A DNA stretch of 64,000 nucleotides, taken from positions 1-64,000 of the forward strand of contig NZ_NFIV01000007.1 of NCBI RefSeq assembly GCF_002159555.1, read 5' to 3'. The notes below the pieces were generated by a model, which was given only the letters and a program-made list of their open reading frames with translations, was not told where the DNA came from and searched no databases. This DNA is from Muribaculum sp. An289 (lineage in GTDB: Bacteria > Bacteroidota > Bacteroidia > Bacteroidales > UBA932). The position numbers and the translations under genes are program-made. Shown here in pieces: positions 1 to 16,408 of this stretch. Every line of letters starts with the position of its first letter. Positions within the stretch are counted from its first letter, which is position 1.

Positions 1-1
1 C

Positions 2-73: not shown

Positions 74-84
74 TTGTTTAACTC

Positions 85-102
85 GTCCCATTTTAACGGG
101 AC
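85..102. terminator. Weak hairpin between convergent genes
   Basis: GTCCC (85-89) pairs with GGGAC (98-102) across an 8-nt loop between the ends of two convergent genes. The stem is only 5 bp with no clear T run, so termination is inferred mainly from position. Confidence 0.25.
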
Positions 103-103
103 A

Positions 104-1270: not shown

Positions 1271-1271
1271 G

Positions 1272-2117: not shown

Positions 2118-2310
2118 AGACTGTGATATATGTGTATTCTTATTTTTCTTTAATATTATTAATCAGTAATTCTGTAATATTGTTTAGTTACCTTCATCTT
2201 GCAATAATTTATATAAGCCCGTGTTTATTACGGGAAATTTAAGATTCTTGCGAATTGTTGAAGGTAAATTAAAATTGTTATTCAATTGTTCTTTCATATC
2301 CTCAATTTGT

Positions 2311-3159
2311 TTAAGATAAATAATCTCTAATCCACAATTCCAATTGTTGGGGCAATGTCGTTTCAATCTTATCAGAATCATATTCCATGTACATTCTAGA
2401 TATCAAATCGGATGGCAATTTAGGTAACTTACAATCTTTAAGCAGACAAACCTTATTTCCTTTTGCCAACATGTAACCAACTTCTAAAGCGACATTGGGA
2501 TTATAACTGTCTTGATCATTTTTGTCAAATATTGCTACTGAAACTTTGCAACAATCAAGATACACTTTAACATTATTCCACAAATCATCCGTAAATAGCT
2601 TCTCGTTAGCTCGTATGGCAATATATCCATTCTTTGCAAATACACTTTTAATTATATCATAGACTATTTTGAGTTCCTCTCTAAATGGCATAATGACAAA
2701 AACTGCATGTTTTCCATAAGTCTTATAAAACTTTATTTCTTCATCTGAATATGAAGGAATGTAAGACATTTTAAAATCAATATCTCGTTGGACCTTAATT
2801 TCTTGGTATCTGCCCATTAGAGAACTCTCTCCTTTTTCTTTTGACCATAATAACTTAGCATCGAGAGTGGCCACGATATCGTCTCTTCTTATCCAACTAT
2901 CATTTGCAAAACTTTCTGCTTCAATCTTATTTGTAGTTTTAAATATATCTAAAGCCTTCTCCATCTCTATTATTGGCATAATCTCATCTCGTCTAAGCCC
3001 ATCAGGAGCATAAACTAAAATGTCAATATCGGATCTAAGGCTGCCCGTCTCATAAGCGCGTGATCCAAATATGTATATTTCTTTAACATTGTTAATCTTG
3101 GAAATTTTATATATTAAATCTCTGAGATTAATTAGTCTTACATCATCTCTAATTGCCAT
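2311..3159 (-). CDS. Nucleotidyltransferase fused to TIR/nucleoside-deoxyribosyltransferase-like domain (cargo operon, gene 2)
   Basis: A 282-residue two-domain protein. Residues 25-50 carry the DNA polymerase beta-type nucleotidyltransferase signature: FGSRAY with G32-S33, a 10-residue spacer, then D44-I-D46. A possible third acidic residue is in KIEAES (80 or 82). This matches minimal (MNT) and CD-NTase-like transferases. Residues 150-262 form a Rossmann-like domain with VFVIMPF (153-159), an FTDD segment, CCKVSVAIF, and NPNVALEVGY (220-229), where E226 occupies the place of the catalytic glutamate of nucleoside 2-deoxyribosyltransferases and NAD-cleaving TIR-like effectors. The coupling of a nucleotide-transferring domain to a potential NAD or nucleoside hydrolase in one chain is unusual. 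The start is 10 nt after the XRE regulator's stop. Substrates and defence function are inferred. Confidence 0.75.
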   Translation of the reverse strand: MAIRDDVRLINLRDLIYKISKINNVKEIYIFGSRAYETGSLRSDIDILVYAPDGLRRDEIMPIIEMEKALDIFKTTNKIEAESFANDSWIRRDDIVATLDAKLLWSKEKGESSLMGRYQEIKVQRDIDFKMSYIPSYSDEEIKFYKTYGKHAVFVIMPFREELKIVYDIIKSVFAKNGYIAIRANEKLFTDDLWNNVKVYLDCCKVSVAIFDKNDQDSYNPNVALEVGYMLAKGNKVCLLKDCKLPKLPSDLISRMYMEYDSDKIETTLPQQLELWIRDYLS

Positions 3160-3169
3160 ATTATATAGA

Positions 3170-3370
3170 TTATTTATTATAAATTAAGTCTTTGGGATCC
3201 ACATTCAATATCTTTGCAATCTCAAATAATACCTCTAAACTTGGTTGTCGACGGTTGCAGACATAAGAGTTGACAATACAAAAACTTTTTCCGAGCTTTT
3301 CTGCCAACCATGTTTGCTTGATGCCTTTTTCTTCAAGCACCTCTTTTATTCGGTTCATGGGTTTGTACAT
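3170..3370 (-). CDS. Small XRE-family HTH regulator (cargo operon, gene 1)
   Basis: A 66-residue protein consisting of one Cro/C1-type helix-turn-helix: RIKEVLEEKGIKQTWLAEKLG forms helices 1-2, SFCIVNSYVCNRRQPS the recognition region, and LFEIAKILNVDPKDLIYN the closing helices. It is the first gene of the operon, 10 nt before the nucleotidyltransferase-TIR-like fusion. A likely role is autoregulation of the cargo module, by analogy with small Cro-like regulators that precede toxin-antitoxin or defence genes. Target sites are not visible. Confidence 0.8.
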   Translation of the reverse strand: MYKPMNRIKEVLEEKGIKQTWLAEKLGKSFCIVNSYVCNRRQPSLEVLFEIAKILNVDPKDLIYNK

Positions 3371-3391
3371 TGTTAAATCCTTGTTATTTTA

Positions 3392-3399
3392 CAAAGATA
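3392..3399 (-). promoter_or_regulatory. Minus-7 box of cargo operon promoter
   Basis: On the minus strand TATCTTTG (plus-strand CAAAGATA) matches the Bacteroidota TAnnTTTG box about 22 nt upstream of the XRE start codon. No clear TTTG box is seen at the expected distance, so only half of the pattern is supported. Confidence 0.4.
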
Positions 3400-3415
3400 T
3401 AAAACATAATGCTAT

Positions 3416-3449
3416 AAAAAGAGAAAAAGGAGAGAAAAGTCCTCTCCTT
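3416..3449 (-). terminator. Terminator after the 3466-3870 gene
   Basis: AAGGAGAG (3427-3434) and CTCTCCTT (3442-3449) form a perfect 8-bp stem with a 7-nt loop. On the minus strand it is followed by a T-rich tract, which places an intrinsic terminator 17 nt after the stop of the gene at 3466-3870. It separates the mobilization genes from the cargo operon. Confidence 0.6.
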
Positions 3450-3465
3450 CATAAAGAAATCTACA

Positions 3466-3870
3466 TTACACCTCCAACTCCTTCAACGGCAATCCATAAT
3501 TATATTGTCTGAAAAATCCTCTGTGGATAAGTTTCAGACCAAGGGTCTGGTAATACTTGTAGTCATCATCCTCGGTGCAAAGGTATTTATAACCGTAACG
3601 TGGGGCGTACTCTTTGAAGAAGCGGGCAAGGTCTTTCAGGTTTTCCTGCTGGTTCCGTTTGAAGTTGCTGCGCACAATGATAATGCTCCAGTCGGGGATG
3701 CTGCCAACGCCGCAACTGTATTCCCAAAAACGGATGTATAAATCCATTTCGCCTACATGGACAGAAACACAAATACCGTTGGCGTTGTGCATGACGGAAC
3801 AACAGTTTCTGTAACCGAATCTCTCACACAAATAGAGATTGAAATCGTAAATAAAATCGGAATAGTTCAT
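3466..3870 (-). CDS. Hypothetical protein downstream of the relaxase gene
   Basis: A 134-residue soluble protein I do not recognise. It begins MNYSDFIYDF, is rich in Tyr, Cys and Phe, and has a central strand-like segment (WSIIIVRSNFK) followed by a helical region (NLKDLARFFKEYAPRYGYKYL). There is no signal peptide or metal-binding motif. It lies 35 nt after the relaxase stop on the same strand and is followed by a terminator, so it is probably the last gene of the mobilization transcript. Its base composition resembles the mob genes rather than the A+T-rich cargo, so it probably belongs to the element backbone. Confidence 0.6.
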   Translation of the reverse strand: MNYSDFIYDFNLYLCERFGYRNCCSVMHNANGICVSVHVGEMDLYIRFWEYSCGVGSIPDWSIIIVRSNFKRNQQENLKDLARFFKEYAPRYGYKYLCTEDDDYKYYQTLGLKLIHRGFFRQYNYGLPLKELEV

Positions 3871-3905
3871 AATAATTTGAATTTTGATGGTTAATAAAAA
3901 ATTGA

Positions 3906-4844
3906 TTATAGACTGAAACCTCGCTTGCGTTTCGGTTTCTTTTTCTTCTTTTTAAGCCGGTTGGCCTGTATCGCTTCCTCCGTATCATAATCCGTAGGAG
4001 AGGGCGTGAACAATCCCACACTGATGCTGGAATGATTCTCCTGCTGGTATTCATGCCGAGGTTCCTCGCGTATGGTTTCTGTCTGTGCCTGACGCTGGTT
4101 CATGGTAGCAGAAAGAGCGTTATATCTCAGCTCCTGGTCGATGTTCAGGAAACTGAACTGGCGGTCAATCTTGGAACCGCTAAAGGTCAGTTGGTCACAT
4201 GTGAACTTGACACCTTGCATCTCTCCGGTCGTGCGACTTAGCTTCCATTGCGTATCAATTCCGTATCTTCGCAAGGCCAGTCGCAGCTCACTCCAGCTTC
4301 GGGCGTTCGGAACTTCTCGTTTCAAGGCATGATAGATAAAATACTTTACCTTGTCGTGATGGCGCAACCGCATGAAATTCACATGCTCTTTTCCTTCGGC
4401 AAAATGCAAGCGGTAACGAGCTGTCAACATCTTGCAAACTTTTTCATTTCGGTAGCGGTCGTTCTTGTCGCTGATGGTGCAGCCATCATTATCCACCCGG
4501 TTGTAAACGATGTGACAATGCGGATGGTCACGGTCGGTATGCCGGGCGATGATGAACTGCGTATTCTCAATTCCCATCAGTTTCATATAGTCGTGGGCGA
4601 TCTTCAGCATCAGCCCATCATCGTCACGGAGGCGGTCTCTGTCCTCTGCGGAGAAGCTCAATGATATATGGCCGACCGTGTTCTTGACCTTGTCATTCAG
4701 TAAAGTCTGCAACTCGAATTGCTCCGCTATTTCTTCGGGTGAACCGTAGACACCAACTGCTTTCAGCAGTCGCGATTTATCTTCTTTCAGCACATAGTTT
4801 ACGCACCCGGAAAACGATGTGCCCTTAACAATCTTACCTATCAT
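3906..4844 (-). CDS. Relaxase / mobilization nuclease (MobA-type, PF03432-like)
   Basis: A 312-residue relaxase that would nick oriT and lead strand transfer. The three-histidine metal motif HTDRDHPHCH is at residues 102-111 (H107, H109, H111). A candidate catalytic tyrosine lies near the N-terminus in SGCVNYVLK (Y17), the usual arrangement for MOBP-type relaxases of Bacteroides mobilizable elements. The C-terminal tail is strongly basic (KKKKKKPKRKRG). Its start overlaps the end of the upstream MobC-like gene by 11 nt, showing translational coupling. The candidate oriT lies upstream of that gene. It lacks a helicase or primase domain, so it is a mobilization-only relaxase relying on a co-resident conjugative element. 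Confidence 0.9.
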   Translation of the reverse strand: MIGKIVKGTSFSGCVNYVLKEDKSRLLKAVGVYGSPEEIAEQFELQTLLNDKVKNTVGHISLSFSAEDRDRLRDDDGLMLKIAHDYMKLMGIENTQFIIARHTDRDHPHCHIVYNRVDNDGCTISDKNDRYRNEKVCKMLTARYRLHFAEGKEHVNFMRLRHHDKVKYFIYHALKREVPNARSWSELRLALRRYGIDTQWKLSRTTGEMQGVKFTCDQLTFSGSKIDRQFSFLNIDQELRYNALSATMNQRQAQTETIREEPRHEYQQENHSSISVGLFTPSPTDYDTEEAIQANRLKKKKKKPKRKRGFSL

Positions 4845-5142
4845 CCTTGAGTTGTTTTATGAGTTGTGAAATCTGTTGAACGGCGGTACTGCACTCATCG
4901 GCCACACGATAAAAACCGTAAGCATTGGCTCGTCTGGCAAGCTGATTCAGGTTCGTGCTTTCGCCAATCAGTTTTCGGATAATGTCAAGATTTTCTCTCG
5001 TAATTCGTTCACGCACCGTACCGCGTTCGATGAGTGAACGCACAACTTCGCTTTGACTGCGTTTACTGCGTCGGCTGAGTGCTCTGAGCCAGCCGAATTG
5101 TTCGTCTGTAAGACGGATTGTAACTGTATTTTTCTTGTCCAT
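4834..5142 (-). CDS. MobC-like relaxosome accessory protein
   Basis: A 102-residue protein with an N-terminal ribbon-helix-helix segment (TVTIRLTDEQFGWLRAL, then SEVVRSLIERG) and a C-terminal STNLNQLARRAN motif characteristic of the MobC family (PF05713). Such proteins bind oriT and assist the relaxase in melting and nicking DNA. It is encoded directly downstream of the candidate oriT and overlaps the relaxase gene. Confidence 0.85.
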   Translation of the reverse strand: MDKKNTVTIRLTDEQFGWLRALSRRSKRSQSEVVRSLIERGTVRERITRENLDIIRKLIGESTNLNQLARRANAYGFYRVADECSTAVQQISQLIKQLKDDR

Positions 5143-5186
5143 AATATTTGCTTTTGAGATTAATAATTGTGACCATCGGGAGCCGT

Positions 5187-5248
5187 CTCACCTTCTTTTG
5201 AGGTGAGCAAGTGGCCGGGAAATGTAATACACCGGCATAAACTTGCTC
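5187..5248. other. Candidate origin of transfer (oriT)
   Basis: The 142-nt spacer between the MobC-like and DUF6371 genes holds stacked inverted repeats. CTCACCT (5187-5193) pairs with AGGTGAG (5201-5207). GAGCAAGT (5205-5212) pairs with ACTTGCTC (5241-5248), enclosing a nested GCCGG (5214-5218) / CCGGC (5232-5236). The first and second hairpins share the GAG at 5205-5207, so they are mutually exclusive. Clustered inverted repeats upstream of mobC-mobA are the expected layout of an oriT. The nick site cannot be placed. Confidence 0.55.
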
Positions 5249-5284
5249 CAGTGAAAAAGAAGTGAATCAGACATCTGAAAGTTA

Positions 5285-6355
5285 TCATTTAAAAAGTCCT
5301 TTCCGGGTACGTTGAACCTTTGCTGAAAGCGGTGCTTTCTCCACATTGACGAGCTGCAAATTGAAAGTTTCGACCAGCGTTTTCAAGGCCGGATTCAACG
5401 TGATAAGACGATTGAAAATAGCCTCCTTTGTCTCTTCTCTCAGCAGGAAATCGGCGATGTCATAACCCGCATCCCGTTCTTCTTTTGTTGCGTTTCTTTC
5501 CATAAAATCGAAGAGAGAAACCTCTATTCCCAGGCTCCGGATCATCTCCATTTTGCTGTTCCAATAGTCGGTTGCCCCAAGGTCGGGGAAGAGCAGAACA
5601 CGTCGGTTTCTCAATACGCTCATGGCATCCCGATTGAACGCTCCGTTCTTTCCGCCCGAAGCAATCCATAGATATTGTGGCAGATAGAAGCTGGAAATCA
5701 AAGCGCTTTTCTCACTCTCCACAAGGGCAACCGGACGCTGCTGGTCGGAGGACAAAAGATGTTCACCAAACAAACATTGCCGAAGGTTGAAATTCTCTTT
5801 CTTCAGAAGGGAATGTACCCACGTGATGTAGTTGTGCGGCTCTTTAATCCGTCTCCCGTTTTCGGGATTGTAGAGCATCACTTTTCCGGTGCGTACCCGT
5901 CCGGAAATATCCACCTGCCAGAAGACTGTAGCTCCCGGCCAATGCTTCGAGGTTCCTACATGGTAGCGCAACATCAGTTCTTTGGTAGCCTCCTGTCCGA
6001 AATGCAAACTCAGGAATTGAAACAGCTTGTTCGTGTGATACAGCTTCAGGGACTGCCTCATGATTTTCGGCTCAATGAATGAAGGTTCAGGAAGCAGACT
6101 GATGCCTGGCTTTGACACCGGTACAAACTTTTCGCTCAATCGTTCTTTGGCAATCGGGTTTTCGTCAAAGTACATTTTGGGCGTATAGTTGTAGCCACAC
6201 TTCTGTTCATGGTTGCATCGCCCTACATAATTGGGAAAACTGATTTGCTTTTCCGTGTCGATGTATTTGGCGAAACAACTTTTGCGGTGGCAGTTCGGGC
6301 ATGTATGCCGGGTGCTGACACCTTTGTATGGTTCTAATGTAAATCTGTAGTTCAT
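5285..6355 (-). CDS. DUF6371-type primase-like protein with CHC2-like zinc finger
   Basis: About 356 residues from the ATG at 6355 (MNYRFTLEPYKG). A longer version starting at 6385 would begin inside a 23-bp hairpin arm and is less likely. The N-terminus has a zinc ribbon with CPNCHRKSC and later CNHEQKCGY, resembling the CHC2 zinc finger of DnaG-type primases. The middle contains a Toprim-like region: VALVESEKSA, then ASGGKNG and VLLFPDLGATDYW. This is the pattern of DUF6371 proteins encoded next to mobilization genes in Bacteroides elements. It probably supports replication or priming of the transferred strand. It follows the DUF3987 gene on the same strand with a long hairpin between them. 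Confidence 0.8.
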   Translation of the reverse strand: MNYRFTLEPYKGVSTRHTCPNCHRKSCFAKYIDTEKQISFPNYVGRCNHEQKCGYNYTPKMYFDENPIAKERLSEKFVPVSKPGISLLPEPSFIEPKIMRQSLKLYHTNKLFQFLSLHFGQEATKELMLRYHVGTSKHWPGATVFWQVDISGRVRTGKVMLYNPENGRRIKEPHNYITWVHSLLKKENFNLRQCLFGEHLLSSDQQRPVALVESEKSALISSFYLPQYLWIASGGKNGAFNRDAMSVLRNRRVLLFPDLGATDYWNSKMEMIRSLGIEVSLFDFMERNATKEERDAGYDIADFLLREETKEAIFNRLITLNPALKTLVETFNLQLVNVEKAPLSAKVQRTRKGLFK

Positions 6356-6373
6356 TTTTCTTTCTGTTTGGAT

Positions 6374-6434
6374 GTTACTATGCACATTTTCGCAACTTCA
6401 CAAACCCCTCGGTTGCGAAAATGTGCATAGTAAC
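6374..6434. repeat. Perfect 23-bp inverted repeat with 15-nt loop
   Basis: Arms 6374-6396 and 6412-6434 are exactly complementary over 23 bases (ends GTTACTATGCACA..., ...TGTGCATAGTAAC) around a 15-nt loop at 6397-6411. It fills the gap between the DUF3987 stop and the DUF6371 start. There is no T run on either strand, so a simple terminator is unlikely. The arm contains TGCACATTTTCG, close to the TGCACATTTCG arms of the hairpins at 31034-31070 and 60608-60644, which also have 15-nt loops. Confidence 0.9.
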
Positions 6435-6438
6435 AGGT

Positions 6439-7821
6439 TTATTTACTGTATTCTCCATGATTCTCTTTTCTGAATAATGTTCCGATGTGGCGTTTTAGAA
6501 ACATCTTAAAAGCATGTTCCTTCATCCCGTAACTTTCAGCAATGCCGATACCTTCTGCCGTTGTAAATCTGTGAGGCAGATTCAGGTATATGTTGCGGTG
6601 CAATTCGCTCAACTGTTCCTGACTGACGGCAGTCTGCACTTTTACGGCTGTTGTCCGAAAATACTCTGCCAGCAGGATGGCACGGTTCACGCTTTCAAGG
6701 TCAATCGTATGCTTGTCGCACTCTCCGCAAGTCCATCGGGCAAGCTGTATAATCAGACAAAACCGGATAATGTAGATTTCCAGTTTGCAGTAAATACCTA
6801 CCAAAGCATCATTGGTTTCCATATCACATTGACGGGCATTTTCATGCTGCCAACCGTAAAGCCGTTGCTTGGCATTTTCATCGAATGGCAGGCATTGAGG
6901 CTGCAACTCATTATTCTCGTCATGCGGACAATCCTGTGTGATCAGCTTGTCGATAATCTGTTGCCACTGGATTTCCAGTTCTTCAGGAGTTTCCCGGTCG
7001 TTCCATCTGCTTTTCAAGACAGATTCAGGCATCACGAAAAGAATACGGTCAATAAAACCGTTACTCGAACGCTCGCCCTTGACCAGTTCGCCCAGAATCT
7101 TCTTTTGAATGGTACCGATAACAGAGATGTAAGGACGTCTGATAAAAATGGAACTTTGCATACTCTTGCGGTCGGAAATCGTGGGCTTGGCATTGAACAC
7201 CGAAAGCCAGAATTGTTCTTCCGAACCGTTATTGTAACGGTTGAAGTTCTTGAACCAGGCCGACAGCTCGTCCGACCAAAGGCAGAGTCCTCTGGGATTC
7301 TGGGCATGTATCAGGCTCAATCCTTCGGGAGTAATATCCGAAACAAGAAAGCGTTTGCGCACGGGAGCCTGCGGAAATTCATCCAAACCAGCTTCCATGC
7401 GTTCCTTTTTGCTCATGGACATAGTGCGTTCATACTCGGCATACAACTTCTGATACTCCTGATTCTGACAATAGTCGTGTTCAATAAACGGCTGGAAAGC
7501 GAAACTCAGCGGATGACTCTTATTCGCTCCGGGGCGTCCAATCAGTGCCATGTACAGAATAGGACTTTCCAGCCAGTTGCGCTTTACCTGCACCAGATGG
7601 GAGTTGCCAATCCCCACGGCAATGGCTGCAAGGATAGCCGCAGCAACATAATCTACGGGATAGCCCTGACAATCGTGTAAACTGCCAATGATACGCTGAA
7701 TCCTGATAGGAAAGACTTCTATCGGGAACTCACCGCCGGACATCTTGGCCCCGATGCGCACAGCCTCGCCGATGATACCTTCTGCTGTTAATTTGGAGGT
7801 TTCCATAGCCGTGCAGATCAA
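6439..7821 (-). CDS. DUF3987 family ATPase of the element replication module
   Basis: A 460-residue protein. Residues about 50-125 contain PVDYVAAAILAAIAVGIGN followed by a Walker A-like IGRPGANKSHPL. A Walker B-like acidic site is in LCLWSDELSAWF, and ISVIGTIQ lies near residue 230. This is the DUF3987 architecture, a RecA/helicase-like fold common in Bacteroides mobile elements beside a primase-like gene. The predicted role is helicase or loader activity in element replication, inferred from family and neighbourhood. Its start overlaps the HTH gene upstream by 4 nt (stop 7818, start 7821), so the pair is translationally coupled. Confidence 0.8.
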   Translation of the reverse strand: MICTAMETSKLTAEGIIGEAVRIGAKMSGGEFPIEVFPIRIQRIIGSLHDCQGYPVDYVAAAILAAIAVGIGNSHLVQVKRNWLESPILYMALIGRPGANKSHPLSFAFQPFIEHDYCQNQEYQKLYAEYERTMSMSKKERMEAGLDEFPQAPVRKRFLVSDITPEGLSLIHAQNPRGLCLWSDELSAWFKNFNRYNNGSEEQFWLSVFNAKPTISDRKSMQSSIFIRRPYISVIGTIQKKILGELVKGERSSNGFIDRILFVMPESVLKSRWNDRETPEELEIQWQQIIDKLITQDCPHDENNELQPQCLPFDENAKQRLYGWQHENARQCDMETNDALVGIYCKLEIYIIRFCLIIQLARWTCGECDKHTIDLESVNRAILLAEYFRTTAVKVQTAVSQEQLSELHRNIYLNLPHRFTTAEGIGIAESYGMKEHAFKMFLKRHIGTLFRKENHGEYSK

Positions 7822-8105
7822 AAGTTATAACCTCCCTTTGGTTTACGCTTTGCTCCATGTACTATTTGCGCGGCTTGTTCCTGGAGCGACATTGCCTGCA
7901 TCTGCTTGCGCCCGGACTCAATCCATTGCAGTAACTCATCTTCATAGAAGTAGAGTTTCTTTCCTTTTTTATAGGCTGGAATTAGTCCTTTACGTGCAAG
8001 CGTGTAAATGGTAGGCTTCGCTTTTCGTGTGATTTTACAGGTTTCGTCAATTTCAACAAGACGATGCTTGTCAGAAGATGTCTGTGGTTGCAATGCCGCC
8101 ACCAT
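7818..8105 (-). CDS. Excisionase-type HTH protein, N-terminus split by an in-frame stop
   Basis: A 95-residue protein with a MerR/excisionase-like winged HTH (HTH_17): RLVEIDETCKITRKAKPT, then IYTLARKGLIPAYKKGKKLYFYEDELLQWIE. The reading frame continues upstream without interruption to an ATG at 8186, reading MANEQITFDKLPQAVGYL and ending EQMEQIR, except for a single TAA at 8106-8108 directly before the ATG at 8105. The 26-codon upstream piece looks like the genuine N-terminal helix of this family, so a nonsense change probably divided the gene, with reinitiation at TAAATG. It is coupled to the DUF3987 gene and probably regulates the replication module. A conserved operator-like element lies 39 nt upstream of the outer start. 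Confidence 0.8.
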   Translation of the reverse strand: MVAALQPQTSSDKHRLVEIDETCKITRKAKPTIYTLARKGLIPAYKKGKKLYFYEDELLQWIESGRKQMQAMSLQEQAAQIVHGAKRKPKGGYNF

Positions 8106-8186
8106 TTACCGGATTTGTTCCATCTGTTCTGTGAGATAACCTACCGCCTGCGGCAGCTTATCAAAAGTGATTTGTTCATTTGCCAT
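8106..8186 (-). pseudogene. Detached N-terminal 26 codons of the HTH gene
   Basis: The frame starts at ATG 8184-8186 (MANEQITFDKLPQ) and stops at TAA 8106-8108, immediately before and in frame with the ATG of the HTH gene at 8105. Replacing this one codon by a sense codon would give a single 122-residue protein. It could be a real short leader peptide, but the in-frame adjacency favours a nonsense mutation. Confidence 0.6.
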
Positions 8187-8224
8187 ACGTACTCGTTTTT
8201 AATTGTTCGCTGGCAAAGGAAATT

Positions 8225-8262
8225 GGTGTTTTGATGGTGGAAAACATCACCGGAATATAACT
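8225..8262 (-). promoter_or_regulatory. Conserved operator-like element, copy A
   Basis: This 38-nt segment matches 13735-13772 at 31 of 38 positions, and the similarity extends weakly about 12 nt upstream. The core is GGTG-N8-CACC followed by GGAAWATAACT. Each copy sits 40-50 nt upstream of a minus-strand start, here the HTH/DUF3987/DUF6371 run, which suggests a shared binding site for an element-encoded HTH protein. Confidence 0.55.
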
Positions 8263-8310
8263 GTGAGATAACTTTTGGTGGTGATTGGTAGTGATTACAA
8301 GGAATTTAAG

Positions 8311-8318
8311 TATCTTTG
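8311..8318 (+). promoter_or_regulatory. Minus-7 box of the DUF262-ATPase operon
   Basis: TATCTTTG at 8311-8318 fits the Bacteroidota TAnnTTTG box and would start transcription near 8325. It lies 41 nt before the ATG at 8359. A TTG start at 8275 would lie upstream of this promoter, so 8359 is preferred. Confidence 0.45.
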
Positions 8319-8358
8319 TAAACGAATAGATAAGAATACTTTATTAGTTAAGCAAAAT

Positions 8359-10023
8359 ATGGCACTATATTTATCTGCAGAACAGAAAAACCTGAAATCA
8401 TTGTTTTCCAATGACAACAGGTATATAATACCAAACTATCAGCGGCACTATTCATGGACTATGGAACAGTGTAGGCAACTATATGATGATATAATGGATG
8501 CATATAGCAGTGGTACCGATTCATATTTTTTGGGAAATATTGTATTGGCAGAAGACGAGCATGACGATCGTCCAGAAGTTGTTGACGGGCAACAACGTTT
8601 AATTACTCTATGGTTATTTCTTAAAGCTATTCATATTCTTCATCCGTTTAATAATCGTCTGAAAAGAATGATACAGGTGGAGTCTTATGAGGATGATAGC
8701 ACTACTGATTTTGTAAGCACCATCTTCTCGGATGTTTTTGAAGTGAAAGATCAAGAACAAATAGATGCTATTCTCACAAAAACAAAAGAAGATTTTGAAA
8801 AAGACTATTTGGAATACTTAAAGAAGGGAGAGATGCTGTACTATAAGAATAGTACAGAACAAGTGAAGAATAATGCAATTGCCATCTATGCACTATTGAG
8901 AGAGTATTTCTCTCGTTTGGATGATGAAAAACAGAAAGTATTTGTTGATTTTTTTATTAGCAAGATATATCTGCTACCTATAGTATTGAAAGACGATGAC
9001 TTGGATGAGGCTAGGTCAAATGCTTTATTAGTTTTTGAAACCATCAACAATAGAGGTATGGATTTACAAGACGCAGATATTTTTAAAGCAAAACTCTATT
9101 ATATGTCTCTATCAGTGGGGAAGGGTGAGAAATTCAAAGAAGAATGGAAAAACCTCATATCTCGATGTGATGACTTAGAACTTAAAATTGATGATTTATT
9201 TCGCTATTACTACCATATAATTAGAGGTAAAGAGGGAATTGTGATAGCCGAAAAAAGACTAAGAGAGTTTTTCCAAAAAGATCCAAAATCTCCCTTTAAA
9301 ACAGGTGGATACGAAATAGTGTTGGAAGATTTACAGAAGACACTAGATGCGATAGAAGTGTACTACTATAAGCGTACAGAGCCTACACGATTAGGAGCTT
9401 GGCTACAAGTGTTAGATGCATACACCAATCAGAATCCTGTATATGCGTTAATAGTGTTTCTATACTTTCACAAAGAGGCTAACGAAGATGACTTAATTGA
9501 ATTCTTAAAAAAAGTTTTGCGTTATTGCTATTACAGAGGTTCAACAATGTCAGTGAAATTTGAGATTTATAATATTATATATAGAGTAGCTGCAAATTTG
9601 CCAGTTGATGACTATTTGACAAAGAATATTGATTCATGGATGTGGAATTATCCTGGACGATTGAGGAAAGGACTTTCCTTATTGGCTTTCTATCTAAAGT
9701 ATCCCAATCAGGTGGCCGTAAAGAATTATAAAGTTGATAAGATTCTCAAGTCAATCGATTCCTGTCATATTGATTCAAACTGGCCAAAAGACAATCTTGA
9801 TGACGATTTAAACAGTCTAGGGAACAATATTGTTCTTGACATGCCACAGCGTAACACTCCTATCTATCAACGTTATCAGTCTTATAAGATGTCTGAGCTA
9901 GAGGAGGTTAAGAATTTAATAAGCACCACTGCAGGTTATACTTATAGCCAATTTACTAAACGAATAAAAGATATATCTAAGCTATTAGAAAATTTCTTTG
10001 TAAATGGAAAAGAAGGGTTATGA
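8359..10023 (+). CDS. DUF262 protein (GmrSD/SspE-like), first gene of a two-gene cargo module
   Basis: A 554-residue protein from ATG 8359. The DUF262 (ParB/sulfiredoxin-like) signature is clear: IIPNYQRHYSW at residues 23-33, FLGNIVLAED at 57-66 and VVDGQQRL at 74-81, the predicted nucleotide-binding and hydrolysis site. Further on, LLVFETINNRGMDLQDADIFKAKL is the usual second family block. The C-terminus has SLGNNIVLDMPQRN, matching the tail of the DUF1524 HNH-nuclease domain, but the preceding segment reads SCHIDSNWP rather than the catalytic EHILP-type histidine motif, so that domain looks degenerate. DUF262 proteins act in modification-dependent restriction (GmrSD, SspE). The last codons overlap the ATPase gene by 4 nt. 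The gene is A+T-rich compared with neighbours, consistent with acquired defence cargo. Confidence 0.8.
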   Translation: MALYLSAEQKNLKSLFSNDNRYIIPNYQRHYSWTMEQCRQLYDDIMDAYSSGTDSYFLGNIVLAEDEHDDRPEVVDGQQRLITLWLFLKAIHILHPFNNRLKRMIQVESYEDDSTTDFVSTIFSDVFEVKDQEQIDAILTKTKEDFEKDYLEYLKKGEMLYYKNSTEQVKNNAIAIYALLREYFSRLDDEKQKVFVDFFISKIYLLPIVLKDDDLDEARSNALLVFETINNRGMDLQDADIFKAKLYYMSLSVGKGEKFKEEWKNLISRCDDLELKIDDLFRYYYHIIRGKEGIVIAEKRLREFFQKDPKSPFKTGGYEIVLEDLQKTLDAIEVYYYKRTEPTRLGAWLQVLDAYTNQNPVYALIVFLYFHKEANEDDLIEFLKKVLRYCYYRGSTMSVKFEIYNIIYRVAANLPVDDYLTKNIDSWMWNYPGRLRKGLSLLAFYLKYPNQVAVKNYKVDKILKSIDSCHIDSNWPKDNLDDDLNSLGNNIVLDMPQRNTPIYQRYQSYKMSELEEVKNLISTTAGYTYSQFTKRIKDISKLLENFFVNGKEGL

Positions 10024-11447
10024 AACAGCTAACATTAGAAAACTTTAAGGCTTTTGGTAGTGATAGAGCTGTTCTCGGAGATGCTACTGCTGAGGGGAAA
10101 CCAATGAATATATTGTGTTATGGCGAAAATGGATCTGGAAAAAGTTCAATTTATGAAGCTATTAAATATGTTTTTCATAAGAAACGAATTGAAAATGAAA
10201 GAATCCCGGCACATCTAACAGGTGATGGGAGACTGAATGCCGAACGTCAGATCTTAATAGATTATAAGAATTGTATGTCGAGTAGTCCCGTTAATATTAC
10301 CGTTAACGGGGAATCTTTTTTGACTTTCGACACCTCATGTTATCATGTATATATGATAGACGGGGCTGATTTAGCTGTTAATAAACAGATTGATGTCAAA
10401 CAATTATTAAAATCAATGTATTTGGGGCATCATGATATTGATAATGAGGTTACACAAGATTTCGTTGATGTAATTGTTTGTGAGACAAACCGTGTTTTAA
10501 AAAAAATTTTCTTTGAAGAAGTGACAGTTGCAGTGTCTCAAAATGGGTCGTTCTTGCTAAAGATTAATGATGATAAGCAAAACCTTCATTATGATGATTT
10601 TTTAAAAATATATTTCAATGAGGCAAAACTTCACCTGATTGTATTAATTGTTGCTTTGTCATCAATTATGTTAATGGCACCTACACAGGCTGACCAAAAG
10701 AGGATTTTAGTTCTCGATGATTTTATTACAAGTTTAGACACTGCCAATCGGTCTTTTTTATATCAATATATTACAAGTTGTTTCAAGTCCTATCAAATAG
10801 TAATTTTTACGCACAATACTAGTTTTTACAACCTATGTGATCATTTCTTGAAGGAAGTTCCAGAAGAAAATCAAAAATGGTTACGTCAAGGAATCTACGA
10901 ATATAATCACAAGCATTGTGTTTATGCCAAGAAGAATGTAGACAGAATAAAAGAAATCGAAAAAGAACTAGATGATCACCCAGAAAATACAATTAATATT
11001 GGTAATGACATTAGACAGTATTTTGAGGTACTACTGCATCAGTTAGCCATGTTGTTGATGTCTGGTGCAAAAGAAGAAACCACTTTCATAATAAAAGAAA
11101 TTTGCCAGAAAAGTGATTTTAGATTTTTTCATATTGATGCCTCCGGCATTAGTGATTTAAGAACACTTTTCAAGGAAATTAATGATATTATGAGACATGC
11201 GCCAGAAGCCATGCAGTGGGAGAAGATTAAGAAGACTATCAATAAGTTCAATAATGCCGCAGAATCAGCTGATAAACTATCAGAAAATATACAGGCAATG
11301 TCTATATATCAAAAAGTAGTTCTTCATCAATCTTCTCATGGACATGCAGGTCTTCCTAATTTGTCAGGAAAAGAAATAAAAGCTTCAATTGAAGTGATGA
11401 AAAAAATAGAAGATACCATCAAAAAAATGAAGATAGAAAGAATATAA
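10020..11447 (+). CDS. Compact SMC/RecF-like AAA ATPase coupled to the DUF262 gene
   Basis: A 475-residue ABC-type ATPase. It opens with KQLTLENFKAFGS typical of RecF/SMC-like proteins, Walker A GENGSGKSS (35-43), Walker B ILVLDDFITSLD (229-240) including the D-loop, and switch histidine in IFTHNTSF (about 265). A signature-like segment FNEAKLHLIVLI is at 199-210. There is no long coiled coil; only about 150 residues separate Walker A from the signature region. The C-terminal 200 residues are helical and unrecognised. The ATG overlaps the DUF262 stop (ATGA), so the two are co-translated. ATPase plus DUF262 pairs are seen in restriction-like islands. A joint DNA-sensing and cleaving function is inferred. 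An open frame continues past the stop (see next entry). Confidence 0.8.
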   Translation: MKQLTLENFKAFGSDRAVLGDATAEGKPMNILCYGENGSGKSSIYEAIKYVFHKKRIENERIPAHLTGDGRLNAERQILIDYKNCMSSSPVNITVNGESFLTFDTSCYHVYMIDGADLAVNKQIDVKQLLKSMYLGHHDIDNEVTQDFVDVIVCETNRVLKKIFFEEVTVAVSQNGSFLLKINDDKQNLHYDDFLKIYFNEAKLHLIVLIVALSSIMLMAPTQADQKRILVLDDFITSLDTANRSFLYQYITSCFKSYQIVIFTHNTSFYNLCDHFLKEVPEENQKWLRQGIYEYNHKHCVYAKKNVDRIKEIEKELDDHPENTINIGNDIRQYFEVLLHQLAMLLMSGAKEETTFIIKEICQKSDFRFFHIDASGISDLRTLFKEINDIMRHAPEAMQWEKIKKTINKFNNAAESADKLSENIQAMSIYQKVVLHQSSHGHAGLPNLSGKEIKASIEVMKKIEDTIKKMKIERI

Positions 11448-11602
11448 TTGAGATTGGCCTTCCAGACATTATTGATGAGATACACTTTTCTCTATGTAGC
11501 CTCTATTATCCTGATAAATGGTCGTTAACACAATATATTTATGATTACGGCTACAAACTTCTTAAAGTTATGAAAATGGATTTAACTATTGGAATGCGAT
11601 AA
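11448..11602 (+). pseudogene. Open reading frame without start after the ATPase gene
   Basis: In the +2 frame relative to the ATPase, translation stays open from inside the ATPase 3' end to TAA 11600-11602. It reads as a plausible protein containing IGLPDIIDEIHFSL and YYPDKWSLTQYIYDYGYK, but there is no ATG, GTG or TTG near its beginning. Either the ATPase gene has suffered a frameshift close to its 3' end and originally continued about 50 residues, or this is the remnant of a third gene. Confidence 0.4.
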
Positions 11603-11620
11603 TACCTAACGGTATTGCTG

Positions 11621-12385
11621 TTATACTTTTTTGTTCAGTTTTATCTTGCTCTCTGATTCTGTATGTGACATTTTACGTTCAATCGTTGAAATTTCCAAGT
11701 CACGGAGGGGATGGGCAAAGACATTCTTGATGAATGTGGCGGTATGAATACGCTTCCTGCCAAAAGCCTTGCCGATGTTCCAACCAAAGTGCATTATATC
11801 AATGCTTTTAAGTTGTGAGTCAACTTTTACAGGCGATATCTTTTGTAAGGTATCTCCTGTACTATATTCTGTAACGTATGTGCATAGACGGTTGAGATCT
11901 TCTTCACCCATATAGGCGACCATGGTTTGCTTAGTATAATTGAGCACCTTTTCTAATTTGGTTTGAATAGCACGATTATTTTCTGCGATAGCGTTGGTTC
12001 GCATGACTTCATATTCTGAAAGTTCAGAGATTGCTTCTTCAGTGGAAGGAGCAGGGTCAATGACATCAGGCGTAGCCTGGTTTGAATCTTTGATTGTAGG
12101 GGCTTCTGGAACAGAAACGGTATCATTGTGATTTTTCATCGTTTGAAAAGCAGTGAAACGCAATAGAAAAGCTTCTATGCGTGGCAGTAGAAACTGATTG
12201 AAAGTTGTCTGTAAACTGGCATAGATTGCCATCAAGACAATTACTGTTGCAAAAAATGCAACACTACTACTGAAATCGTCAACGCCTTTGGATAAAACAA
12301 ACAGCCGAGCTAAAACGCCAACGACAAGCGTACCTACCAATACAAGGGAATAGAGTGCTATATGTTCTATACTTTTCTGATTCAT
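11621..12385 (-). CDS. Membrane protein of unknown function next to the integrase
   Basis: A 254-residue protein with two predicted membrane helices (IALYSLVLVGTLVVGVLA at about 9-26 and VAFFATVIVLMAIYASL at about 42-58), then a hydrophilic, partly helical cytoplasmic region. A Pro/Ser/Asp/Glu-rich linker spans about 88-120. The C-terminus includes HFGWNIGKAFGRKRIHTATF and is basic. I do not recognise a family. It lies between the DUF262 module and the integrase and reads in the same direction as the integrase, with a strong terminator between them, so it is transcribed separately. Confidence 0.55.
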   Translation of the reverse strand: MNQKSIEHIALYSLVLVGTLVVGVLARLFVLSKGVDDFSSSVAFFATVIVLMAIYASLQTTFNQFLLPRIEAFLLRFTAFQTMKNHNDTVSVPEAPTIKDSNQATPDVIDPAPSTEEAISELSEYEVMRTNAIAENNRAIQTKLEKVLNYTKQTMVAYMGEEDLNRLCTYVTEYSTGDTLQKISPVKVDSQLKSIDIMHFGWNIGKAFGRKRIHTATFIKNVFAHPLRDLEISTIERKMSHTESESKIKLNKKV

Positions 12386-12514
12386 AGTGATATTTGCTAA
12401 TTGTTTGTGCGCAAATATATGTCATTTCATAGATACCATGTTATAAATCCAAGAAAGTGGCAGCATTTGTCCTCGATATGGTACTTATTTCTATGCCATC
12501 TATGCCACAATAGA

Positions 12515-12558
12515 ATAAAAAAGAGTCCGACATGGGAGTAAAACATAGTCGGACTCTT
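12515..12558 (-). terminator. Intrinsic terminator of the integrase gene
   Basis: AAGAGTCCGAC (12521-12531) pairs perfectly with GTCGGACTCTT (12548-12558) over 11 bp with a 16-nt loop. On the minus strand it is followed directly by a T run, 22 nt after the integrase stop. Confidence 0.85.
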
Positions 12559-12579
12559 CTTATGTTACAGTACTCAATG

Positions 12580-13686
12580 CTATTTCAGCGAAATCTTATT
12601 CGCTGTCTCTCGCTTCTTAGAGTTAACCAAATCAGCATAGATTTGAGTAGTGGTGACATTCTTGTGTGTCAGCATCTTTGATACTGTGTAAATGTCTGTA
12701 CCTAAAGAGATTTGGATGACCGCATACGAGTGCCTAAAGCAGTGGAAGGTTATGTGCTTTTTGATTCCGGCTTCGGCAATCCATTGTTTCAGGGGATGAT
12801 GAGTCATGGATCGGGTTAAGCCTTTGAAGACTTTTCCGGTGCCCCATTCGCCACACAACTCCAGTGCTTCCTGACTGATAGGGAGGGTGGCCTCGGTTTC
12901 TGTCTTTTCGGTGCAGATACGGATGTAATAGCCTTGATCCGGACCGACTTCAAAGTCACGCCAATCCAGCTTCAGAATATCACTGATACGGAGGCCGGTC
13001 ATGCAAGCGAATAGGGAGGCCTGTTTCAAGACTGGAATCTTGCAGGGTGTAGCGGCCAGTTTCTTGACTTCATCAAGTGTCAGATACTCTTTCTTGACCT
13101 CTTTCCATTCTATCTTTTCCAGAAAGTCGTTCAAGTTCTCACGCAGCATCTTCTCTTTGTAGGCTATCTTCAACAAGGCTCGGAAAGTTGAATAATAGCC
13201 AGCGGCCGAATTGCGTGAGATATAAGCATTGGGATGATTGATTTGTTTGCATTTGAGCAGGTAATCCCTGAACTTCTCGCACAGTTCCACGGTGACATCA
13301 CCAAAGGTGCATTTACCACCGACAAATTTCTCGAAGTGGTTGTAAACGCAATCCCATTTCTCATACTTTTCTCGTGCTTTAGTCCGGAAATAGGCGAGAA
13401 AATCTACCTTGTGTTTGTTCTTATCCAGGAACCCGAATTCTTCATTGATAAGCGACTGGACACGGATACAGCGGATAGCCTCTGCCTTGTTCAGCATATC
13501 CTGATTGAACATTCTTTGCTGCTCATTCTTGGGCTTGGCATAGATGTAAATGCCGAGGAATTCCCGGCGACTCATCTTCATCGTGTAAGGATTGCGGATG
13601 GCCGGATAATAATCCAGATAAAGAGATATACGGTCGTTACGCAATGGCTTTTGTCTCAGTGTTACGTTGGTACATGTAAGTGTCAT
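12580..13686 (-). CDS. Tyrosine recombinase / integrase
   Basis: A 368-residue site-specific recombinase. The N-terminal part includes an arm/SAM-like core-binding region (about 95-190). The catalytic domain shows the full set: R233 in TGLRISDILKL, H315-x-x-R318 in FHCFRHSYA, H341 in LTHKNV and the nucleophile Y350 in TTQIYADL. It would integrate and excise the element. It sits within about 1.3 kb of the mnmE 3' end, the presumed attachment site, with the four-winged HTH protein between, as expected for a recombinase at the element end. A conserved operator-like element lies 49 nt upstream of its start. Confidence 0.92.
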   Translation of the reverse strand: MTLTCTNVTLRQKPLRNDRISLYLDYYPAIRNPYTMKMSRREFLGIYIYAKPKNEQQRMFNQDMLNKAEAIRCIRVQSLINEEFGFLDKNKHKVDFLAYFRTKAREKYEKWDCVYNHFEKFVGGKCTFGDVTVELCEKFRDYLLKCKQINHPNAYISRNSAAGYYSTFRALLKIAYKEKMLRENLNDFLEKIEWKEVKKEYLTLDEVKKLAATPCKIPVLKQASLFACMTGLRISDILKLDWRDFEVGPDQGYYIRICTEKTETEATLPISQEALELCGEWGTGKVFKGLTRSMTHHPLKQWIAEAGIKKHITFHCFRHSYAVIQISLGTDIYTVSKMLTHKNVTTTQIYADLVNSKKRETANKISLK

Positions 13687-13734
13687 AGCTATATTGTTTT
13701 TTGATTAATACTTGTTTTTGTTGCAAATAAAATA

Positions 13735-13772
13735 GGTGTTCTAATGGTGGTATTTATCACCGGAAAATAACT
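13735..13772 (-). promoter_or_regulatory. Conserved operator-like element, copy B
   Basis: This is the second copy of the 38-nt element at 8225-8262, with the same GGTG-N8-CACC core. It lies between the integrase start (13686) and the upstream HTH gene, so integrase and replication module may be under common control. It could instead be a recombinase arm site. Confidence 0.55.
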
Positions 13773-13778
13773 TTCGGC

Positions 13779-14684
13779 TCATTCTATCTTTGGAGGCGCA
13801 AAGAACTTGTCCAGCTCTGCCCGCAGGATCTTGGTATATTTACCGACCTTGATATGGGGAATATTATGGTATTTCACATAATGGTAAAGTTGATCCCGCG
13901 TCAAATTGAATCGCTCCATCGCTTCGGCAATGGTGTAGTATTTGGGCTCTTCTGGGGCAATGAGACCTTTGGCAATGTCCACATGCTTTTTGGAGTAGTA
14001 CACCATGATGCCGACCTTCTTCTTGGGAATGGCATTCTTTGAAACAAAAGAATAGATGGCCGTCAGTGTCATACCGAACTTCTCCTGCATGTCTTGCGTG
14101 CTGTACCATTCCCTGATTTCAGGATCGGGAGCTTTCTTTGCAAAGTAGTCATCAATATGCTTTTTGCTCCAATAGGTTTTTCCACGGTGAAAGGTTCGTG
14201 GAATATTATGTTCCTTAGCGATATGAAATATCCAGGAATCCTTTACGCCATACTTCTCCTTGATTTCGGCGGTGGTGTAGAAATCATTAATGGAAGGTTT
14301 GTCTCTTACCGGAATCTTAAATTCTATAGACTTCTTGAATAAGTTATCAATATCCTCCTTTTTCAATAGAAACTTATATCCAAGTCGGATGGCTTTAAGT
14401 TCACCTCTTTTCAGATAGCCATAAAGAGTAGGTCGGGTTACGCCTATGTATGTGGCAGCTTCTGTGATAGTAAGAATAGGCTTGTCTCTGATTTTTGCAA
14501 TCGGCTTCTCCTTGATGACTTTTTCTACAATTTGGTTGTTGGCCTTAATAGAAGCCTCACGTTTCTTCTGTTTATACAGAAGGTTTGCACATCTGTGCGA
14601 ACAACAGGTTGTAGTCGTTTTATGCGCAATGAATTCTTGCTTGCACCACGCACAGATTCGTCTGATTTCAATGTTGCTACTCAT
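13779..14684 (-). CDS. Protein with N-terminal zinc ribbon and four tandem excisionase-type HTH domains
   Basis: About 301 residues from ATG 14684 (MSSNIEIRRICAWCKQEF), chosen because an AAGGAG sequence lies just upstream; the frame is open to 14849 without a better start. A CAWC...CCSHRC zinc-binding region comes first. Then come four MerR/HTH_17-like winged helices: ILTITEAATYIGVTRPTLYGYL, FYTTAEIKEKYGV with RTFHRGKTYW, EWYSTQDMQEKFGMTLTAIYSF and KYYTIAEAMERFNLTRDQLYHY, each ending in a wing and a helix that closes the unit. Excisionases of this fold usually have one copy; four imply a long or repeated DNA target. The gene is at the extreme element end, upstream of the integrase. A role in excision or integrase control is inferred. 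Confidence 0.75.
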   Translation of the reverse strand: MSSNIEIRRICAWCKQEFIAHKTTTTCCSHRCANLLYKQKKREASIKANNQIVEKVIKEKPIAKIRDKPILTITEAATYIGVTRPTLYGYLKRGELKAIRLGYKFLLKKEDIDNLFKKSIEFKIPVRDKPSINDFYTTAEIKEKYGVKDSWIFHIAKEHNIPRTFHRGKTYWSKKHIDDYFAKKAPDPEIREWYSTQDMQEKFGMTLTAIYSFVSKNAIPKKKVGIMVYYSKKHVDIAKGLIAPEEPKYYTIAEAMERFNLTRDQLYHYVKYHNIPHIKVGKYTKILRAELDKFFAPPKIE

Positions 14685-14723
14685 GTTATTTCTCCTTATT
14701 TCTCCAATATTTTTGTATAACTC

Positions 14724-14828
14724 CGTAAAATCCCGTAAAATGGCGTAAAAGTTCTCCACGACCTTGCCAACGATAATCCTTAGATTTTCGTGGTGAGGTA
14801 CACAGGAGGTACAAAAAATGGCGTAAAA
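14724..14828. repeat. Phased CGTAAAA iterons near the element end
   Basis: CGTAAAA occurs at 14724-14730, 14734-14740 and 14744-14750, an exact 10-bp phase that places all three on one DNA face. A fourth copy with the same TGGCGTAAAA context is at 14822-14828. They lie upstream of the multi-HTH gene and 100-200 nt from the mnmE stop. They could be excisionase or integrase arm-type sites, or operators. Confidence 0.6.
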
Positions 14829-14864
14829 AGGCTTAGCAACGATTATCAACGATACTTGAGCAAC

Positions 14865-14890
14865 AAAAAAGGCGCCCCGTAAAGAGCGCC
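14865..14890 (-). terminator. Terminator downstream of mnmE
   Basis: On the minus strand GGCGC and GCGCC (plus positions 14886-14890 and 14871-14875) form a stem followed by six T (plus A run 14865-14870), 46 nt after the mnmE stop. Confidence 0.6.
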
Positions 14891-14935
14891 ATATTAATCG
14901 ATTATAATCAATTTAACTCATTGATAATCAGATAG

Positions 14936-14955
14936 TTATTTGCCGACGCAAAACC
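14936..14955. other. Putative attachment site core in the mnmE 3' end
   Basis: The last mnmE codons, encoding FCVGK and stop, lie immediately beside the integrase-proximal end of the element. The corresponding trmE codons are the crossover site used by SGI1-type integrases in enterobacteria. A second copy at the other end of the element would prove it, but none is seen in this window. Confidence 0.4.
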
Positions 14956-16408
14956 CTTTGAACACTTCGCCCAGGACCTCTTCCGTGGAGATTTCCCCGG
15001 TGATTTCGCCGAGGTGATGGATTGCCTCGCGGATGTCCTGGGAAACGAGGTCGGTCGGCAGGCCGTCGGAAAGCCCTTTTATGGTACGGTCGAGGGCTTC
15101 TGCGGTAGCTCGCAAGGCATCGGCATGACGTACATTGGTTACAAGTACGGAATCGGGGTCTCCGAGCATGGAACGCATATAATCGGCTAAAACACCGCGT
15201 AATTCGTCCGTTCCGAAAGACATTTTTGCTGACAAAGGTATGACCGGGACGTCCTTGACGATTCTGACCCCCTCGGGAAGCAAGGCCTGAAGCCGGTCGT
15301 AAATTCTTGCCAGCCTATCCATAAGTTCCGAAGAAAATCCTCCTTCGTCCCCGGATGCATAAAGGTCCGCCTTGTTCATAAGCAGCATGAGTTTTTGAGC
15401 CTTGAAATCCACGTGTCCGACTATCGCTTTAAAACTCTCCGACAAACGGCGGAAAGGGGAGGAGATATCCATAACGGCCAACACGACGGAAGCGGAGCCG
15501 ATTTTCTCGAAAGTCCGTTCAATGCCTTTCTTCTCGATATTACCGGCACTTTCGCGAAGACCGGCGGTATCTATGAACCTGAAAAGCATCCCGTCGATAT
15601 TGAGGCATTCTTCAATCGTGTCCCTTGTAGTGCCATGCTGTTCGGAAACAATCGCCCTTTCTTCGCCGAGCAACGTATTGAGCAGAGTGCTTTTCCCGGC
15701 ATTCGTCGCTCCCGTGATGACTGTCGGCAGACCGTTTTTAACGGCATTTCCGGCACGAAAACTTTCCGCAAGCCTCCGTGCGTGGTCGCGAATCCTGACG
15801 GCAAGGGCCGTAAGCGCGGTGCGGTCGGCGAATTGTACGTCTTCTTCGGAAAAATCGAGTTCCAGTTCCATCAACGTCACCAATTGCAGAAGCTCATCCC
15901 GCATTTTCTTCAATTCGGATGAAAATCCGCCTCGCATCTGCATCATGGCAAGTCTGTGCGAGGCCTCGTTTCCGGCGGCTATGATGTCAGCAACCGACTC
16001 GGCCTGAGCCAAATCCATCTTTCCATTCACAAAAGCCCTTCTCGTAAACTCTCCCGGTTCCGCAAGCCGTGCCCCAGCAGCAACGAGAAGCATCAGAAAC
16101 TGTTCCGCTATATATGGAGAAGCGTGGCACGAAATCTCAACAGAGTCTTCTCCGGTATACGAATGCGGTGCACGGAATACGGCGGCAAGCACATCATCAA
16201 GAGGTCTTCCCTCGGAATCGGCCGCCCGGGCGAATTTTACCGTATTGCCGGGTACTATGTTGCCGTCCGGACCCTTCAGTGTCCCTCCGAGCACCTTGTC
16301 GGCAATGCATATCGCATCCGGACCGCTCAGTCTTATCACTGAAATCGCACCAGTGCCCGGGACGGTAGCCGGTGCGCATATTGTATCATTCAATTTATTC
16401 TGCCTCAT
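14936..16408 (-). CDS. mnmE: tRNA-modification GTPase MnmE (TrmE)
   Basis: A 490-residue protein that, with MnmG, builds the aminomethyl group at uridine-34 of certain tRNAs. The N-terminal tetrahydrofolate-binding domain starts DTICAPATVPGTGAISVIRLSG. The G domain shows G1 GATNAGKST (233-241), G2 TTRDTIEE, G3 DTAGLR (280-285) and G4 NKADL. The C-terminal helical domain ends in the conserved FCVGK with its cysteine. The length is slightly above the usual 450-460. It is the first chromosomal gene beyond the mobile element, divergent from ppk, and its 3' end is the likely integration target. The reading frame to the native FCVGK end is intact, so integration has not damaged it. Confidence 0.97.
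   Translation of the reverse strand: MRQNKLNDTICAPATVPGTGAISVIRLSGPDAICIADKVLGGTLKGPDGNIVPGNTVKFARAADSEGRPLDDVLAAVFRAPHSYTGEDSVEISCHASPYIAEQFLMLLVAAGARLAEPGEFTRRAFVNGKMDLAQAESVADIIAAGNEASHRLAMMQMRGGFSSELKKMRDELLQLVTLMELELDFSEEDVQFADRTALTALAVRIRDHARRLAESFRAGNAVKNGLPTVITGATNAGKSTLLNTLLGEERAIVSEQHGTTRDTIEECLNIDGMLFRFIDTAGLRESAGNIEKKGIERTFEKIGSASVVLAVMDISSPFRRLSESFKAIVGHVDFKAQKLMLLMNKADLYASGDEGGFSSELMDRLARIYDRLQALLPEGVRIVKDVPVIPLSAKMSFGTDELRGVLADYMRSMLGDPDSVLVTNVRHADALRATAEALDRTIKGLSDGLPTDLVSQDIREAIHHLGEITGEISTEEVLGEVFKGFCVGK

Follow-up and report, generated by a model that had tools for sequence, protein, structure and literature searches.

What is a tyrosine recombinase doing directly behind the last codons of mnmE in a member of Bacteroidota, and does it mark the end of a mobile element that inserts there as SGI1 does? 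The stretch of DNA analysed here, which we call the window, comprises 64,000 nucleotides of Muribaculum sp. An289 (contig NZ_NFIV01000007.1, positions 1 to 64,000). The original prediction placed a recombinase and an excisionase-like partner beside the end of mnmE and regarded that end as intact, and both statements agree with the features in Table 1. The gene is full length, and its last 18 nt read TTTTGCGTCGGCAAATAA (FCVGK-stop).

The integrase contains domains PF00589 (1.4e-21), PF13102, and PF17293, named Phage_integrase, SAM_5, and Arm-DNA-bind_5, and its best solved relatives, judged by sequence, are IntI4, XerD, and XerA. The neighbouring ORF matches HTH_17 at 4e-30, with two stretches passing. 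Because many relatives align only from about residue 37–56, the ATG at 14684 is its likelier start. An inverted TTGATWATCAA box is found near both element ends, and the inverse of the TGATTATCAA box that adjoins the mnmE end, TTGATAATCAA, lies near the far-end core in three relatives.

Table 1. Features of the window from the mnmE gene to the contig start
Feature	Position	Strand	Remarks
mnmE (trmE/thdF), intact target gene	14936-16408	-	490 aa; TrmE_N, MMR_HSR1, MnmE_helical
Attachment-site core, terminal 18 nt of mnmE	14936-14953	-	equivalent 18 nt recur at the far end in three relatives
TGATTATCAA box adjoining the core	14921-14930	-	putative integrase-binding site
Terminator-like hairpin and T-run placed by the element after mnmE	14863-14892	-	-15 kcal/mol, z -3.25
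Excisionase-like ORF with several HTH_17 domains	13779-14849	-	356 aa from mechanical TTG start
Tyrosine recombinase (integrase)	12580-13686	-	368 aa; ORF list and domain search
Backbone ORF, no assigned function	11621-12385	-	254 aa; DNA 92-96% identical in several relatives
SMC/AAA ATPase ORF, cargo	10020-11447	+	candidate defence pair with GmrSD_N-type ORF
GmrSD_N-type ORF, cargo	8275-10023	+	candidate defence pair with SMC/AAA ATPase ORF
HTH_17 ORF, backbone	7818-8105	-	domain search
DUF3987 ORF, backbone	6439-7821	-	domain search
Zn-ribbon/DUF6371 ORF, backbone	5285-6385	-	domain search
MobC	4834-5142	-	PF05713 5.1e-15
MobA-type relaxase	3906-4844	-	PF03432 2.3e-35
Cargo: AAA ORF with its partner (the pair matches PADLOC candidate PDC-M37A/B) and a nucleotidyltransferase ORF	104-3159	-	outside shared backbone

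If the integrase chooses the mnmE end, does it lie behind this gene in other hosts as well? A genome scan with the integrase gave 161 relatives among the candidates, of which the best 80 were kept, resulting in 76 loci. We counted mnmE as adjacent when a MnmE match reached residue 480 or beyond and ended no more than 2.6 kb upstream of the integrase; absence was called only where at least 1.4 kb of upstream sequence was available, and shorter loci were set aside as too short. The gene was upstream in 50 of these 76 loci and absent in 16, and 10 were too short. Another 29 loci from 99 related genomes were divided into 12, 7, and 10, respectively, so that for all 105 loci judged the numbers are 62 with mnmE, 23 without it, and 20 too short. 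Among the hosts are Bacteroides, Mediterranea, Leyella, Parabacteroides, Barnesiella, Alistipes, Muribaculaceae, Flavobacterium, and a Sphingobacteriales MAG.

The neighbouring mnmE is in each case the host's own. In close relatives it is only about 40–57% identical to that of the window, while the integrase together with the left end of the element is 93–99% identical, and the junction passes from host-specific to element-specific sequence exactly at the mnmE end. With such a divergent host gene and an integrase up to 99% identical, it was the element that moved and not the locus. Integrases 75% identical to that of the window also occur in two Bacteroides plasmid records, NZ_AP019726.1 (47997-49100) and NZ_OY725936.1 (74666-75769), with lengths of 119 and 174 kb. 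Short contigs titled Lachnospiraceae, Brachyspira, and Aeriscardovia (L106, L107, L114) carry this integrase too; here binning errors are more likely than transfer across phyla.

The opposite end of the element was looked for by a pattern search of 16 genomes, after which the stretches were extracted and compared. Three copies have both ends: Mediterranea massiliensis (149076 to 187930, 38.9 kb), Bacteroides mediterraneensis (2089664 to 2052583, 37.1 kb), and Parabacteroides An277 (42417 to 4308, 38.1 kb). Their left and right core copies are TTCTGCATCGGTAAGTAA and TACTGCATCGGAAAGTAA, TTTTGCATAGGCAAGTAA and TACTGCATAGGCAAATAA, and TTTTGCATCGGCAAGTAA and TACTGCGTCGGAAAGTAA, respectively. The three far ends agree at about 91–95% as far as the 18-nt repeat, and past it the similarity ends. 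The far end in B. clarus, 86.6 kb away, was left out of this set. Insertion at the 3′ end of mnmE, as originally proposed, is thus established at the level of sequence through the relatives, by its recurrence beside divergent mnmE genes and by three far ends that stop at a second 18-nt copy.

For the window itself this second copy, which had been expected on the left side, was not recovered; it exists in the three relatives, 37–39 kb away. The window begins with the first base of contig C34, so the left side of this copy cannot be read directly. The assembly (2.32 Mb, 36 contigs) gave a single match to the 18-mer with up to two mismatches and a single match to a relaxed 15-mer, and therefore no second mnmE end. 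It holds only one left end. One stretch alone resembles a far end: positions 4487-6555 of contig C7 match that of Mediterranea at 94% identity, but the junction of this stretch has the sequence CTGCATAGGGATGTCC and is followed by a fragment of an AraC-type gene. Since this junction is not mnmE-like, we rejected the stretch as the far end of the window copy; it thus appears to belong to another or rearranged copy, which is evidence against interpreting the assembly as a simple case with one copy. The starts of C34 and C7 have no common 21-mer in their first 3 kb. On C7 (G000:C7:1-6830, L183) there are IS21-like repeats at the contig start, and its AraC-type fragment shares 99% identity along 143 bp with a fragment in genome G002, where different DNA comes before it.

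No sister strain with a truly vacant site emerged when the B. mediterraneensis flank past the far end was searched for in 60 genomes from that genus. This flank had some match in 14 of them and about 1 kb of match only in G176, G145, and G143; among these, G176 alone had mnmE within the extracted stretch, 9.6 kb off and with an element left end between. The same flank lies 9.6 kb from mnmE in G176 against 37.6 kb in G109, and both sites are occupied. A tblastx comparison of the native downstream genes of three flanks (Mediterranea, B. mediterraneensis, and B. clarus) with one another gave no hit at 1e-10 among the matches listed. Nor did we meet a strain free of the element in which the HTH and integrase genes stand beside mnmE, the arrangement that the original prediction had named as contrary to it. 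In E. coli, 4599 of 5374 genomes matching the mnmE-tnaC junction keep most of the query in one place, and four split cases that we opened had a single gene inside and no integrase.

How are the exceptions to be understood? The 16 scan loci without adjacent mnmE count against the site reading, and six of them are unexplained. Three (L113, L114, L122) are short, with only about 2 kb upstream, which is below the 2.2 kb spacing of their relative L116. In two (L136, L137) the integrase lies behind dnaK. One, L063 in the complete genome of B. xylanisolvens XB1A, is a secondary site 1.54 Mb from mnmE; the mnmE end of this strain is already occupied by L223, a member with 75% integrase identity. Four lie further along the mnmE contig on the same strand: L082 (Coprobacter) 24.8 kb beyond the gene, where the junction has an 18-nt core, L086 (B. 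ndongoniae) about 29 kb past it with a weak core, L123 (B. gallinarum) 12.5 kb past it with another integrase between and without a visible core, and L135, which lies about 65 kb past it and has a core. The remaining six comprise L097, L099, L127, and L128, which have a core-like junction and mnmE on a different contig, and L130 and L133, where no core-like junction was seen. A boundary in a tRNA gene, the other outcome named beforehand as adverse, is rejected, as the window and the 12 off-target loci scanned contain no tRNA gene. A tandem array occurs in Parabacteroides An277, where another pair of HTH and integrase genes (39% identity) comes directly after the far end of the window-type element.

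These off-target sites also help to locate the strand exchange. The far ends always start with TACTGC (TACTGC-R-T) and not with the host-like TTY, while the left junctions of L063, L082, L086, and L097 all end in GGNAAGTAA and vary in their first nine bases. Because each end is constant in this way, we infer an exchange at about positions 4 to 10 of the 18-nt core. The integrase would recombine the 18-nt copy borne by the element with the chromosomal one, so that TTY-TGY-RTN (Phe-Cys-Ile/Val) would be kept from the host, and GGN-AAR-TAA (Gly-Lys-stop) is probably supplied by the element, which would leave MnmE whole. The attP of an excised circle is expected to carry TACTGCNTNGGNAAGTAA. CTnDOT-type integrases have a few variable bases beside the core, the coupling sequence. 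In a sample of 21 hand-chosen rows of near-identical elements, bases +1 to +5 past the mnmE stop were highly variable (mean entropy 0.84 for +1 to +6 versus 0.12 for +7 to +60), possibly by a coupling-sequence effect as in CTnDOT.

The element brings one more feature to its target, a terminator-like hairpin. Only 3 of 200 shuffles of the window hairpin fold as well as it does. By one simple rule, applied within 110 nt of the mnmE stop, a hairpin was present in 53 of 61 distinct integrase loci, which are not 53 independent cases because the rows are related, versus 9 of 24 mnmE loci without an integrase match and 238 of 1220 mononucleotide shuffles; at least four of these nine (L006, L007, L008, L030) carry left ends of the element, with the integrase beyond the short locus. 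The hairpins lie mostly about 40–70 nt past the stop, and their stems differ between branches (GGCGC/GCGCC, AGCAC/GTGCT, AAGCCTTG/CAAGGCTT). Such an element-supplied hairpin may act as a terminator after mnmE. In two congeneric loci (L003 in G001, L004 in G002) the mnmE stop is followed immediately by what looks like the left end of a different type of element, with a hairpin, and each contig ends no more than about 350 nt further on.

A quick tree of 88 integrases with midpoint root placed all 54 mnmE-labelled rows on one side of 76 rows (support 96); the other side, with 12 rows, has none. The labels change 14 times on the tree against 27.5 in shuffles. Inside the 76-row side, a branch of five rows (L043–L045, L136, L137) sits behind the 3′ end of dnaK, as indicated by HSP70 at L136, a full-length match at L137, and C-terminal matches to residue 641 in L043–L045, and a hairpin follows the stop in the four loci listed. 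This branch is an apparent switch of target gene within the integrase clade. We are inclined to see here an old, phylum-wide Bacteroidota integrase lineage that targets conserved protein genes at their 3′ ends, for the most part mnmE and in one branch dnaK. Each element would restore the last codons and bring a terminator so that the target is insulated; mnmE would then be a docking site for tandem defence elements, independent of the gammaproteobacterial SGI1 lineage.

What kind of element carries this integrase? The stretch 3430-8290 (HTH, DUF3987, DUF6371, MobC, and MobA) is 94–96% identical in several relatives of other families, whereas 8300-11600 and 1-3400 are not common to the relatives, and the GmrSD_N and SMC/AAA region is skipped in most of their alignments. 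The B. mediterraneensis copy has DpdE/DrmD- and DruE-like helicases, a KAP NTPase, IS21, AbiE-like genes, and mobilisation genes; the AbiE-like genes were typed in the C7 copy. To judge from the genes, what varies among the copies examined is mostly cargo of the candidate phage-defence kind. Two components of an integrative mobilizable element (IME), a tyrosine integrase and its own MobA/MobC, are present in the window, and the flanking direct repeats are present in three relatives and were not seen for the window copy. We are highly confident that positions 1-14935 are the integrase end of an IME that has entered mnmE at its last 18 nt. The directionality factor for excision of this IME is probably the multi-HTH protein, and through MobA/MobC the excised circle could probably be mobilised by a conjugative element resident in the host.

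Two other views of this DNA were weighed. The integrase could be a fixed or degenerate chromosomal neighbour of mnmE, a relic and not the end of a mobile element, and the far end of the window copy, which was not found, would fit with that; yet a relic does not account for an integrase and left end so well conserved beside such divergent mnmE genes, for the far ends with direct repeats in three relatives, or for the copy in XB1A at its secondary site, so that we find this view hardly credible. The second view, an integrative conjugative element whose own transfer apparatus lies outside the visible part, is also improbable, if slightly less so. The window holds only 14.9 kb of the element, which leaves room for such genes, but the relaxase is of the MobA/MobC kind, and no transfer apparatus occurs among the ORFs typed in the incomplete window copy or in the complete 37.1-kb B. 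mediterraneensis copy, leaving aside its 993- and 618-aa ORFs. The IME reading remains the preferred one.

How does this IME compare with SGI1 (Salmonella genomic island 1), the parallel originally drawn? The integrase described here has Arm-DNA-bind_5 and SAM_5 domains, and the SGI1 integrase is of another arm type. Islands of the SGI1 family depend for mobilisation on IncA/C plasmids, through AcaCD. SGI1 and MGIVchHai6 are mobilizable elements with a tyrosine recombinase that occupy the last 18 nt of trmE/mnmE between imperfect direct repeats (PMC2297512, PMC4958241, PMC3285670), and the Bacteroidota element resembles SGI1 in its insertion there, seen at the window junction and in the direct repeats of three relatives. 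The published DR-L, TTCTGTATTGGGAAGTAA (PMC11237444), has 6 mismatches in 18 positions against the window core and three against the core common among the relatives, TTCTGCATCGGCAAGTAA. The parallel is real, and it includes the secondary sites and tandem arrays described for SGI1 (PMC2297512), which have counterparts in the Bacteroidota relatives. The differences are the host phylum, the backbone and cargo, and the gene order, which is mnmE, HTH gene, and integrase here, while in MGIVchHai6 int adjoins trmE with xis beyond (PMC4958241). Could the integrase come from the same trmE-specific lineage as that of SGI1? The identical 18-nt target, the shared secondary sites and tandem arrays, and a similar exchange point (SGI1 is cleaved upstream of position 9, PMC2297512) would suit common descent, but the gene order and the arm and SAM_5 domains of the integrase speak against it and make it unlikely. 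Judged from that order and from the Bacteroidota-type integrase architecture, the agreement in site is probably convergence, and independent choice would be easy because these 18 nt encode a conserved peptide.

If convergence is correct, mobile elements of two phyla have independently chosen the same 18 coding bases, and the rules by which integrases choose targets become testable. One could then ask why FC-I/V-GK-stop codons suit integration and how a lineage shifts from mnmE to dnaK. Tandem stacking at mnmE would be explained, and the mnmE end would be a predictable address for new anti-phage systems in gut Bacteroidota, because the variable cargo of the copies examined is mainly defence-like.

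NBU1 and NBU2, two known Bacteroides elements, integrate at tRNA genes. With the Bacteroides IMEs NBU1, NBU2, Tn4555, Tn5520, and cLV25, which have a tyrosine integrase and a MobP-type relaxase (PMC5704250), our element shares the phylum, the type of integrase, and the MobP-type relaxase. The Bacteroides entries compared from the IME table of that source give two preferred sites, AT-rich regions, or targets not determined, none of them at trmE, and among the entries compared trmE is the target only for SGI1 and MGIVchHai6 (PMC5704250). Our literature search, thin on subscription journals and preprints, turned up no description of elements at mnmE in Bacteroidota. The CTnDOT type is similar in having a Bacteroidota integrase and variable bases by the core (here +1 to +5 past the stop, with a putative relation to strand exchange), and the element described here differs from it in its high specificity for one coding end.
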